A DNA stretch of 64,000 bases from Acidobacteriota bacterium (GTDB lineage Bacteria > Acidobacteriota > Terriglobia > Terriglobales > Acidobacteriaceae). The notes beneath the pieces are model-generated. The model was not told the origin of the DNA. It was given only the letters and a program-made list of their open reading frames with translations, and searched no databases. The position numbers and the translations under genes were made by a program. Within the stretch, counting starts at the first letter, position 1; each line of letters begins with the position of its first letter. The stretch is taken from positions 558,001-622,000 of the forward strand of contig JAFDVQ010000006.1 in NCBI GenBank assembly GCA_018268915.1, in the 5' to 3' direction. Of the stretch, positions 16,060 through 20,219 are shown piece by piece.

Positions 16060-16545
16060 TCAGTCTGCCGACGCGATCTGCTTCGCCGCTTCCAGAACAT
16101 CCGTCTCAGGATTGAGTGCCTGAAAGCCCTCTGCCCGAGCCGCTTCCAGCAGCATCGGCGACGCCGAAACGAAAACGATTTCCGTTCCGCGGAACATCTC
16201 TCTCGCGACCATCGCCGCTCCAAGCTGCAGCGCATCCGTCCACCGCAAACGAGAGCGATCCAATAGCTGGCGGGCCGCTTCAAGCACCGCCGGGTTGAGC
16301 GGCTCCTGCACCATCCTGGCTGCTTCAATTCGAAGAATCTCGAAAGCAGACGCTGCGTTTGCGGCGCTGATATCACCAGCGCGCTCGCGTCGCCGGATCG
16401 CCGCATAAACCTCGAGCGGTGCCGAGGCAGCGATGAGCTTGCGATTATCCTCGACCGACTCCATCAGTCGAATCAGCGGGTCCGTCCCCGGCTCCAGCAC
16501 GAAGAGCTTGGCGAAAGCCGTAGACTCGAGGAAATAGCAGTTCAC
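16060..16545 (-). CDS. PIN-domain protein, VapC-like, altered active site
   Basis: The 161-residue protein is a VapC-type PIN domain: CYFLESTAFAKLF at the N-terminus, an acidic residue at 45 (LEVYAAI), WTDALQLGAAM at 102-112 and VFVSASPMLLEAARAEG at 124-140. In active VapC ribonucleases the first position is Asp; here it is Glu7. The fourth acidic position, usually Asp in S-x-D, is Ser129. Activity may be weak or lost. GTG is the start and it overlaps the stop of the upstream gene by 4 bases, so the two are translationally coupled. It faces the molybdenum hydroxylase operon tail to tail with almost no gap. Confidence 0.8.
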   Translation of the reverse strand: MNCYFLESTAFAKLFVLEPGTDPLIRLMESVEDNRKLIAASAPLEVYAAIRRRERAGDISAANAASAFEILRIEAARMVQEPLNPAVLEAARQLLDRSRLRWTDALQLGAAMVAREMFRGTEIVFVSASPMLLEAARAEGFQALNPETDVLEAAKQIASAD

Positions 16546-17255
16546 AGCTTGCCCCGCTCCTCATGGATGTCTTCCGTGATCGGATCGCCCTGCACCACAA
16601 CTGGATGAAACCGCTGCGCCTCTTCCGGAACTCCAGCCTCGGCGCGGTTCAAACGTATTGTCGTGGTCGGGTAGGCTGGCGTCTTCGGATTGGCGATTTT
16701 GCTCGTCAGCACAACTCCCCGCTGAATCGCCTCCGCCAATACCGCCTGCCGTGATTCGGGATGCTGATTCCACCGGAATGTCTTCCGCGGCAGAAAAGAA
16801 TCGCGAAACCACTTCAGCGCGATGAATGCATGCCCGCCCCGTTCTGCTTCCGCCAGTGCGGCGCAAAGTTCCTTCACCCGCGCATCGAGGTCGGCCGGGA
16901 TCGCAGCTGCTTCTTCTGGCTCGTCATCGAAGTCCCTCTCGATGGGGCCCCGCGTGCGGCTCTGTCTTGCGGGCCCGGTGCCGTCATCAAGGCGCTCGAA
17001 ATAGATCCGAACTTCATCCTCTTCCGGAGACCACGCCTCTGCCGACGCGTTTCGCCGCTTGCTGCGGCCATTTTCACTGCAGAGCTCCACGATTGCCTGG
17101 TATCCCGGAGGTGCCAGGAACCGCAGTGCGCGAACAAGGCCCGGGTCCTGCGAGAAGGCAAGCTCGCTTAGGGCTTCTTCGATGATTTCTTCGGCGTCTG
17201 GAATGCTGAGATTGCTAACGTCTGCGCTGCTTTGCGCAGCCCGATTCGACTTCAT
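16542..17255 (-). CDS. Unknown 237-residue partner of the PIN-domain gene
   Basis: I do not recognise this protein. It has an acidic N-terminal helix (DAEEIIEEALSELAF), a charged low-complexity middle rich in Glu, Asp and Arg (about 70-120), a helix LDARVKELCAALAEAERGG, and a C-terminal segment with Trp and Phe residues (LKWFRDSFLPRKTFRW and then NPKTPAYPTTTIRLNR) that could be a small winged-helix-like fold. It sits where an antitoxin would sit, upstream of and overlapping a VapC-like gene, but is about three times the usual antitoxin length. A role in restraining or guiding the PIN protein is inference from position only. Confidence 0.7.
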   Translation of the reverse strand: MKSNRAAQSSADVSNLSIPDAEEIIEEALSELAFSQDPGLVRALRFLAPPGYQAIVELCSENGRSKRRNASAEAWSPEEDEVRIYFERLDDGTGPARQSRTRGPIERDFDDEPEEAAAIPADLDARVKELCAALAEAERGGHAFIALKWFRDSFLPRKTFRWNQHPESRQAVLAEAIQRGVVLTSKIANPKTPAYPTTTIRLNRAEAGVPEEAQRFHPVVVQGDPITEDIHEERGKL

Positions 17256-17678
17256 AAAGATTCTCCGTATAAAGCATCTCTAGCCTGTTTGTTCCCGCCG
17301 CGCTCTATTGCATTTCCCGACCTTTTTCTAAAGCAGGCGCTATGGTGGTGGGTCACAGGTTCCTATTCTGGCTGTAACGGACCGAATTCCGTTTCCCGAA
17401 CATTTGTAAGGTACTCATCACGGCGATTTAGTCTGGCTGAAGCAGCCCCATGGTCAAAGCCTCTGCTTCGTTCTGACAGACACCCCACAGGGTCGAGAAA
17501 ACTTTAAGTAGAAAGCACTTCCGGGCTCAAAAACCCGTGTAAATGATTGTGCAACTTAACCCTTTGCCGGTGCAAGACCAGCACGGTGTCCCATCTAAAG
17601 GAATTTAAGTCTAAGAGAGACATGAGATGTGTGGTCCATGGAATGCTTTGTTGCTCTACATCTCCGTACAATAGAGAA
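17256..17678. other. Gene-free divergent promoter region
   Basis: These 423 bases separate two divergent genes. The plus frame is open from 17547, but that part carries no similarity and lacks a signal peptide, so I treat it as untranslated. No repeat, terminator or clear promoter boxes were found. Confidence 0.5.
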
Positions 17679-20219
17679 ATGCGGCGAATTTCCCTGGTGT
17701 TGTTCCTGATTCTGGTTTGTTTGGGGAGCAAGCCTGCACAGGGTCAGGCCGGGCCACCGGCTTTTGACCTGGTCGGCCCGAAGGTTGACGTGCATGTGAA
17801 GCGGGGCGAGGAGACCCTGCCCATCGGACAGGTCCCGAACCTTATGCCCGGTGACCGGCTCTGGATCCATCCTGACTTCCCAGAGAGCCAGTCAGCGCAC
17901 TACGTGCTCATCGTTGGCTTCCTTCGCGGAGCGACCAATCCTCCGCCTTCTGAATGGTTTACGCACGTTGAAACCTGGTCGAAGAAGGTCCGCCAGGAGG
18001 GGGTCTTCGTCACCGTACCCGCCGAGGCGCAGCAGGCGATCTTGTTCCTGGCGCCTTCCACAGGCGGCGACTTCAGCACGCTCCGAAGCGCGGTTCGCGG
18101 ACGTCCTGGCCTCTTTGTCCGCTCGACTCAGGATCTGAACTTCGCCAATGCCGACCGCATGCGGCTCGATACCTACCTCTCCGAAGTCAAAGTCACCTCC
18201 CAGACCGACCCCAAGTCCCTGAAAGACCGCGCACAAAAAGCGGCCGCGGTGCTAGGAATTCGTGTCGAGCAGCAGTGCTTCGACAAGCCATCCGACCAGC
18301 AGGCGCCTTGCCTTACTCAGCACACCGAGGGCATGGTCCTCGATGACGCCAACGTTTCCAATCGCGTCTCCCAACTGACCAGCGGCAGCAGCGTCGACCT
18401 GATGAACCAGCTGGCCTACTCGCCCATCGGCGGTGCCGGGGTATTCAGTCCCTACATCGGAGCAATTCTCGACACGGCGCGAATCCTCGCCTCTCTTCAC
18501 ACAGCGCACTTCCAGTACATTCCTGCTCTGTCATTGCCAACCGACGACACGCTGAATTTGCGGCTGAGTGTCCCGCCCTCATTCAAGGATCCCAAGTCTG
18601 TCGTCGTGATTGCGCTTCCCCCCGTTGGTCCGGCGAAAATGCCGCCTCTTCATCCCTCGAATCCCTCTGAACAGTTCTGCGCCCAGAAGCCCGGATTGGT
18701 TCTGCCTGCTGAAGGCGCGCCTATGGTCTACGGAAGCCCAGAGGCCCACGACCTCAAGTTGCGAATTCAGACCAAAACAGGTCCGATCGAAATCCCTGTC
18801 AAAGCAGACGCCGGCCAGGGCGGCCTGGTACTCACCAAGCCTGCTCCTGCTCTGCCGCCGGGCGATCTGACTGGGGTTGTGGTTGGCAAGTGGGGATTCG
18901 ACAACTGGGAAGGACCCCGCTTCCACTTGGTAGCATCCGGTCCGGGCAAGTGGAGAGTCGCCGCCAGCGACGAGCTCGCCCTGGTTGTCGGGCGCGAGGA
19001 CACGCTCCACGTACAGGGCGAAAACACCCTGTGTGTAGCAAAAGTTAACGCGCAGCCGAATGGCGGCGTTCCGCTTGACGTTCAATGGAAGTCTCCACGA
19101 CCGCAGGCGCTTGAGTTCGCCGTTCCGCTGAAAGATGCGAAGCCCGGCGAGGTTTCCATCAGCATCCATCAATATGGATTGGATAAACCCGACAAGCTGA
19201 CATTGATGGCCTACTCCGAAGCGGCATCGCTGGATCGCCTCACCCTGAGCGCCGGAGATCCCGAGGCGATTCTTTCCGGAACGCGCCTCGATGAAGTGGC
19301 AAAGGTTTCCTTCAGCAACATCGACTGGACGCCGGCGGAGTTGAGACGTGTGCAGGATGTCGATCAACTCAGCTTGAAGGCGGGCAGTGCGACAGAGACT
19401 CTCGAACCCGGCAAGCGCTACACAGCCAAGGTCACACTCAGAGATGGCCGCGATCTGAAGGTGCCCGTCACCGTAGAGCGCTCACGCCCCCAGGTCGCAC
19501 TTCTGAGCAAGGGCTCGCAGGAAGAAGAGACCGCCGATCCCTCGCCCGTGCATCTGGGAAGCCCGAACGATCTTCCCGTCGAGCGCCGCCTGGTCTTCTT
19601 TTTGAAGTCGAAGTCTCCGCAGAATTTCCCGCGCGATCAGAAAGTAGAAGTCGCCGCTGCCGACAATAGCTTCCACACCACACTCTCGCTGAGCGACGGA
19701 ACGTTGATGCTTGAAGACTCGAGCACCGCGCTCGGAGTCGTGGAACCCCTCGCGAAGTTCGGCTCGTCCGCATTCGGACCCGTTCAGGCGCGTGCGGTTT
19801 CAGGCGATGGAGTCCCCGGAGAATGGCTCTCGTTGGGCACCCTGGTCCGTCTGCCTGGCTTCAAGGAACTGCGCTGCCCCCATGCTGTCTCCAAGCCATG
19901 CACCTTGACCGGGACAAACCTGTTCCTGGCCCATTCCATTTCGGCATCGTCAGACTTCGACAGTCCCGTAGATGTGCCGGCCGATTTCACCGGGACGCAG
20001 ATGACGGTGCCCCACCCATCAAACGGCGTGTTGTATCTAAAACTCCGCGATGATCCCGAGACGGTTCAGACACTCGGGCTCACGGTTCTGCCTGCGACGC
20101 CAACCTCGTCCGTGGCAGCGAAGTCAACTGAGAAACCCAGCGAATCCAAACAAACTGAATCCAGACAGTCAGACCAGCAGAGTGCCCAAACTCCCCCTCA
20201 GTCAAAGACAGACCCATAA
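17679..20219 (+). CDS. Large secreted protein of unknown function
   Basis: The 846-residue protein begins at ATG 17679 with a clear signal peptide (RRISLVLFLILVCLGS, cleavage after about AQGQA). I do not recognise the family. The N-terminal 300 residues look folded and alpha/beta; later there are several immunoglobulin-like stretches, two of which resemble IPT folds (AILSGTRLDEVAKVSF near 560 and CTLTGTNLFLAHSISA near 755). The last 45 residues are low complexity (Ser, Gln, Thr, Pro). An in-frame upstream ATG at 17547 would add 44 residues but bury the signal peptide. Likely an envelope or extracellular multi-domain protein typical of Acidobacteriota. Confidence 0.75.
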   Translation: MRRISLVLFLILVCLGSKPAQGQAGPPAFDLVGPKVDVHVKRGEETLPIGQVPNLMPGDRLWIHPDFPESQSAHYVLIVGFLRGATNPPPSEWFTHVETWSKKVRQEGVFVTVPAEAQQAILFLAPSTGGDFSTLRSAVRGRPGLFVRSTQDLNFANADRMRLDTYLSEVKVTSQTDPKSLKDRAQKAAAVLGIRVEQQCFDKPSDQQAPCLTQHTEGMVLDDANVSNRVSQLTSGSSVDLMNQLAYSPIGGAGVFSPYIGAILDTARILASLHTAHFQYIPALSLPTDDTLNLRLSVPPSFKDPKSVVVIALPPVGPAKMPPLHPSNPSEQFCAQKPGLVLPAEGAPMVYGSPEAHDLKLRIQTKTGPIEIPVKADAGQGGLVLTKPAPALPPGDLTGVVVGKWGFDNWEGPRFHLVASGPGKWRVAASDELALVVGREDTLHVQGENTLCVAKVNAQPNGGVPLDVQWKSPRPQALEFAVPLKDAKPGEVSISIHQYGLDKPDKLTLMAYSEAASLDRLTLSAGDPEAILSGTRLDEVAKVSFSNIDWTPAELRRVQDVDQLSLKAGSATETLEPGKRYTAKVTLRDGRDLKVPVTVERSRPQVALLSKGSQEEETADPSPVHLGSPNDLPVERRLVFFLKSKSPQNFPRDQKVEVAAADNSFHTTLSLSDGTLMLEDSSTALGVVEPLAKFGSSAFGPVQARAVSGDGVPGEWLSLGTLVRLPGFKELRCPHAVSKPCTLTGTNLFLAHSISASSDFDSPVDVPADFTGTQMTVPHPSNGVLYLKLRDDPETVQTLGLTVLPATPTSSVAAKSTEKPSESKQTESRQSDQQSAQTPPQSKTDP

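Follow-up and report, generated by a model that had tools for sequence, protein, structure and literature searches.

What purpose is served by keeping chromosomal toxin-antitoxin modules is a long-standing question. In type II modules, toxins tune the oligomerisation or the DNA affinity of their antitoxins, a behaviour termed conditional cooperativity. The closest functional model for the gene pair described here is MtvT/MtvA, which is presented in the available portion of its source (PMC11826091) as an inactive type II module, plasmid-borne in Pseudomonas, that regulates conjugation and virulence genes. As far as that portion goes, MtvT/MtvA and the model proposed below have in common a toxin without detectable toxicity and a pair acting as a transcription regulator, while the former is carried by Pseudomonas plasmids and the regulatory role of our pair is suggested by evolutionary evidence only. 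VapKSC, in the part of the article available (PMC13373217), is similar in that its VapC-like PIN protein is bound by an antitoxin with an unusual fold and that inhibition requires the C-terminus of this antitoxin; it differs in its STAS-domain antitoxin, its control by a kinase and its active VapC. The type II VapBC systems (PF01850) share with our pair the antitoxin-toxin gene order, the 4-base overlap, the PIN fold and a putative docking tail with a conserved arginine, and distant relatives of the pair carry the full acidic quartet. Unlike VapBC, however, the clade to which our pair belongs lacks the fourth catalytic aspartate, and the partner protein is approximately three times the usual antitoxin size, has a predicted winged helix where VapBC antitoxins usually have a small DNA-binding scaffold, and belongs to no antitoxin family described in Pfam, NCBIfam or PADLOC. 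In the literature searched, whose coverage mostly excluded subscription journals, the pair was not described.

The pair is located in a 64,000-nucleotide stretch of DNA, analysed as a whole and referred to as the window, from a 5.9-Mb Acidobacteriaceae genome. The nearest named relative found was Occallatibacter savannae, with a partner 93% identical to that of the window. The features of the locus are as follows:

16060..16545, minus strand: PIN-domain (VapC-like) protein of 161 aa with a GTG start and the quartet E7 E45 D104 S129
16542..17255, minus strand: partner of 237 aa, antitoxin-like, with a predicted winged helix
16542..16545, minus strand: GTGA overlap of the partner stop and the PIN start, with the same 4-base overlap in 79 of 80 related loci (best 80 of 135)
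16620..16904, minus strand: predicted winged-helix domain of the partner, residues ~118-212, from AlphaFold pLDDT and VIA-align Z
16545..16622, minus strand: putative C-terminal PIN-docking tail of the partner, residues ~212-237, ending in RFHPVVVQGDPITEDIHEERGKL
16992..17204, minus strand: predicted N-terminal domain of the partner, residues ~18-88, with two helices and two strands (AlphaFold block pLDDT 67-84)
17682..20219, plus strand: divergent gene encoding a protein of 845 aa (from the ATG at 17682), large and probably secreted; a candidate target

Both minus-strand open reading frames called by the first-pass annotation, of 161 and 237 aa, were present where it had placed them, with the partner TGA and the PIN GTG sharing the bases GTGA, and a convergent molybdopterin dehydrogenase gene lies downstream of the pair. 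Pfam detected the PIN domain in the window protein with an E value of 0.00069 and 20.7 bits, below the 23.6-bit cut-off, and PF01850 was matched at E <= 0.01 by all 43 members of the PIN alignment A2. The best Foldseek matches were archaeal VapC-type PIN proteins, none with E below 0.001; the low-score matches included Nmd4 and SMG6, eukaryotic PIN proteins of RNA decay. A sequence search for relatives with solved structures found none. In genome G000, the only other PF01850 match lies at 123380-123703 of contig 9, within a 371-aa open frame.

The composition of the active site raises the question of whether this PIN protein still cuts. The four VapC positions are occupied in the window by Glu7, Glu45, Asp104 and Ser129, as the first-pass annotation had read them. 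Among 80 distinct close relatives (alignment A4), position 7 is Glu in 72 and Asp in 8, position 45 is Glu in all 80, position 104 is variously Asp (46), Glu (22), Ser (6), Gly (2), Gln (2) or Ala (2), and position 129 is mostly Ser (63), with Asp (6), Ala (5), Cys (2), His, Leu, Thr and Asn (1 each) making up the remainder. Since their entropy ranks are 120 and 102 of 146 columns, respectively, columns 104 and 129 belong to the more variable ones. Changes were counted on a tree of 108 rows, which was built without the four acidic columns and with rows of identical partner and PIN merged; the tree is a quick one, in which several branches are long and the deep joins unsure, and it excludes L044 and L032 (truncated partners), L015 (equal to L014) and L156 (with a seemingly broken PIN). 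A full quartet was found in all 16 distant rows (DEDD in nine, EEDD in seven), while Asp129 was found in 0 of the 73 rows of the window clade, where position 104 is Asp in 45, Glu in 16, Ser in 6 and Gln, Ala or Gly in 2 each. Three acids are thus kept in 61 of these 73 rows, the window included, and only two in the 12 rows with no acid at position 104. The tree requires 15 changes between Asp and other residues at position 104, 6 between acid and non-acid there, and 3 between Asp and other residues at position 129. Outside the tree, the distant member L044, whose partner is truncated at a contig end, has the noncanonical quartet EEEN.

Judged from the sequences, the PIN active site of the window clade is decayed, with the fourth aspartate gone and the third position variable, and the toxin of the pair has probably lost its cutting site. 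Two residues had been singled out as departures from active VapC; Ser129 proved telling, but Glu7 is not diagnostic and was ruled out as a sign of inactivity, being carried by 7 of the 16 distant rows in which E45, D104 and D129 are intact. PIN proteins with three acids may still cut, human SMG6 being an example. In the available portion of PMC4229260, VapC1 of Haemophilus influenzae is reported to have Asn at the fourth Asp position and a compensating Glu120, and other PIN proteins to be inactivated by mutation of the fourth Asp. Compensation of the VapC1 type, by an acid at +3, was ruled out for our PIN proteins, since every row has Leu, Met or Val at position 132. Of the 76 rows without Asp129, 69 carry an acid at position 134, against 7 of 18 canonical rows, and this acid (Glu134, +5) could substitute for Asp129.

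Is the PIN gene nevertheless maintained? The median NG86 dN/dS over 19 close pairs was 0.077 for the PIN gene and 0.082 for the partner gene, values indicating that the PIN is still under purifying selection. The catalytic columns drift while the protein is tightly held; hence, its present role is probably not the one for which those columns were needed.

One additional line of evidence is provided by the end of the partner, which appears to be a toxin-docking segment. The partner C-termini include RFHPVVVQGDPITEDIHEERGKL in the window, FHPIHIKGEPLSATILRERR in L048 and RFNPVRIRGGSISDTVLDDRN in L154. Arg234 of the tail is found in 100 of the 101 rows with a PIN and in 12 of 12 in which position 104 is not acidic. 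The tail motif F.P[VI] occurs in 99 of the 101 rows with a PIN versus 0 of the 7 without, an association of tail loss with PIN loss that rests on a single evolutionary event. A tail model of 26 positions, trained on the tails of 96 partners, was applied to the last 40 residues of open reading frames near related PIN genes that stand beside other antitoxins (24 loci, which gave 23 upstream frames, L137 giving none). The 99th percentile of 887 control frame ends was exceeded by 22 of the 23 frames directly upstream of a PIN, and 18 of the 23 non-homologous upstream antitoxins scored above all 887 controls. For three tail-bearing antitoxins the best Pfam matches were Phd/YefM (below the cut-off), AF2212-like (above it) and RHH (below it). 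In the Phd/YefM and VapC pair of an Acidithiobacillus caldus plasmid (L157), the tail PLAIGGKEISRLILDERG scored 7.7, again above all 887 controls, and the PIN is 34% identical to that of L154, a distant relative of the window PIN; unlike our partner, the L157 antitoxin has 73 aa, a Phd N-terminal domain and no winged helix. Because the tail model matches unrelated antitoxins, the tail can be viewed as a docking module common to several antitoxin scaffolds, which suggests a single type of docking tail in winged-helix, Phd, AF2212-like and RHH antitoxins. The partner tail is that of ordinary VapC antitoxins, and the pair therefore descends from a toxin-antitoxin module. An arginine of many VapB proteins displaces the metal in the VapC active site, according to the accessible part of PMC13373217.

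Two unusual frames were observed beside related PIN genes. In L164 (G109), a 75-residue frame before the PIN has a strong partner-type tail (score 35.2) and no winged helix, and represents either an isolated tail or a partner that has been truncated. In L188 (G510), a 439-residue frame upstream of the PIN ends in the same docking tail (score 17.8) and, if its start is right, would be another unusually large antitoxin.

The scaffold that carries the tail in the window was modelled with AlphaFold from 38 sequences (mean pLDDT 71.8, pTM 0.40). The model consists of an N-terminal part (residues 18-88), a disordered linker (93-119), a winged helix and a weakly predicted tail, the winged-helix blocks reaching a pLDDT of 83-92 over residues ~121-210. 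With VIA-align, the winged helices of SarX, RecQ, MarR and PadR matched residues 112-213 at middling Z scores of 7-8.8, all four kinds of chain alike, whereas in Foldseek searches E was never below 0.018. Some of the winged-helix structure matches are ribosome-assembly proteins, and winged helices are also known to serve protein contacts. The window partner had no Pfam, NCBIfam or PADLOC match, its winged helix included; its 31 homologues had no consistent Pfam match; and PF02604, the Phd N-terminal DNA-binding domain, was absent from all of them. By these comparisons, the partner is a putative antitoxin on an undescribed scaffold. What had been read as only a possible winged-helix-like end is a predicted domain of ~95 residues (118-212) followed by a separate tail.

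How widespread is the pair? Of 300 genomes sampled from the family, 54 carry the partner, among them 20 of the 21 genus members in that sample; of 396 sampled across the phylum, 11 do so, three of which belong to another family (f21). Within the family sample, the PIN adjoins the partner downstream in 47 of the 54 genomes that have the partner, and an open PIN frame directly follows it in all 80 of the additional loci examined (the best 80 of 135), with an overlap of 4 bases in 79 of these and 8 bases in one. Such counts show that the adjacency is not due to chance. Among the first 54 loci, the two genes of the more distant pairs (L045-L054) do not overlap but lie 1-4 bases apart; loci L165 and L166, two of the genes also numbered L041-L043, have 4-base overlaps. 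An origin from phages or mobile elements was rejected, no relative of the partner being found in phage records, plasmids or IMG/VR contigs. In L093, on a contig labelled as a Rhodoferax MAG, the partner is 77% identical to that of the window; this is probably a misbinned acidobacterial contig.

In seven genomes of genus g44, the partner is present without the PIN, a loss that corresponds to one event on the tree (7 rows). A search with A2 found no PIN relative at all in six of the seven genomes and one VapC elsewhere in the seventh; for L036, the sequence stops 129 bases downstream of the partner, and the neighbourhood was only partly seen. The partners of these seven species have lost the tail and kept the winged-helix part, and they remain constrained (dN/dS 0.087-0.148, 4 pairs). 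In a different family, f21, the partner tail of L156 (G321) is intact, but the PIN downstream of it is apparently broken and continues into the adjacent gene, which might represent a second, independent PIN loss. A single locus thus offers a natural series, from the full quartet through the partial quartet and two acids to no PIN, in which the antitoxin docking tail tracks the presence of the PIN, so that the idea of a toxin retained as a regulator becomes directly testable.

Taken together, the data lead us to favour, with moderate confidence, a domesticated VapBC-type module composed of a winged-helix regulator and a docked PIN co-regulator; an old addiction module may, in this soil bacterium and its relatives, have become a gene switch. 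The partner would be a DNA-binding transcription regulator, as its predicted winged helix suggests, and would hold the PIN by its C-terminal tail, the terminal arginine reaching into what is left of the acidic pocket (E7, E45). RNA cutting by the PIN would be gone or nearly so, and the docked PIN, by analogy to conditional cooperativity, would tune the oligomerisation or DNA affinity of the partner. The operon of the two genes themselves would be the likely target, perhaps together with the divergent gene for a secreted protein. The first-pass proposal of a PIN system with a regulatory role, as opposed to a simple toxin-antitoxin pair, agrees with the decayed site under purifying selection, the winged helix and the PIN-less lineage, although the partner, with its ordinary VapC antitoxin tail, is less foreign than had been supposed. 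We consider plausible but on balance doubtful a lineage-wide version, in which the PIN throughout the 73-row Acidobacteriaceae clade would be a pseudo-nuclease, a VapC without catalysis preserved by selection as a subunit docked to a winged-helix regulator of a large envelope or secreted protein, and in which the regulator of one lineage would later have shed tail and PIN and continued alone.

The main alternative is a toxin that is still active with three acids: E7, E45 and D104, perhaps with Glu134, would suffice for RNA cleavage and the partner would be its antitoxin. The window and 60 more of the 73 clade rows do keep three acids, an acid at 134 is enriched where Asp129 is missing, the tail and Arg234 are kept, and VapC1, in the available text of PMC4229260, shows that the fourth position is flexible; but VapC1 has its compensating Glu at +3, where our rows have Leu, Met or Val, and the same text reports that fourth-Asp mutation inactivates other PIN proteins. 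Moreover, 12 of the 73 clade rows are down to two acids, and 15 changes between Asp and other residues at position 104 are unexpected for a catalytic residue, which makes this reading rather unlikely in our assessment. The gradual loss of acids, the complete loss of the PIN once, in 7 species, and the broken appearance of the PIN beside the partner in G321 would also suit a former toxin-antitoxin module losing its function stepwise, with the PIN as a passenger on the way out. Such decay is improbable for a gene whose dN/dS equals that of the partner, whose frame is open in 80 of 80 loci (best 80 of 135) and whose partner keeps the docking arginine in 100 of 101 rows. An action of the pair on RNA rather than DNA, with a dead PIN holding RNA and a winged helix binding RNA or protein, could account for Nmd4 and SMG6 among the low-score Foldseek matches of the PIN and for ribosome-assembly proteins among the structure matches of the winged helix; it is made very improbable by the best PIN matches being archaeal VapC-type proteins, even if none has E below 0.001, and by the partner tail being an antitoxin tail.

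A divergent gene is located upstream of the partner in 112 of 134 loci, including all seven PIN-less loci. The 22 loci without it comprise 15 distant ones (L040-L054, with upstream sequence scarce in L044 and L051), three located at the end of a contig (L015, L032 and L117) and four (L084, L086, L088 and L119) in which 3000 bases upstream of the partner gave no match. The divergent gene is present in 200 of the 300 family genomes, some with several copies, compared with 54 for the partner, and so does not need the partner; the divergent gene is likewise missing from G261, the only sampled genus member that has no partner. By eye, its product has a signal-peptide-like start, and no Pfam family exceeds its cut-off. 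Adjacency makes the divergent gene a candidate target and no more. A search for a shared operator upstream of the partner with four patterns gave 0 of 7 PIN-less loci, and a promoter and terminator scan of the divergent region found nothing; 8- to 10-mers are enriched upstream of the partner in the window clade. At 17660-17690 on the plus strand, a -10-like TACAAT (GTACAATAGAGAAATG) precedes the ATG of the divergent gene by ~10 bases, and ATTGTACG is present in 24 of 92 upstream regions; this gene may be transcribed leaderless.
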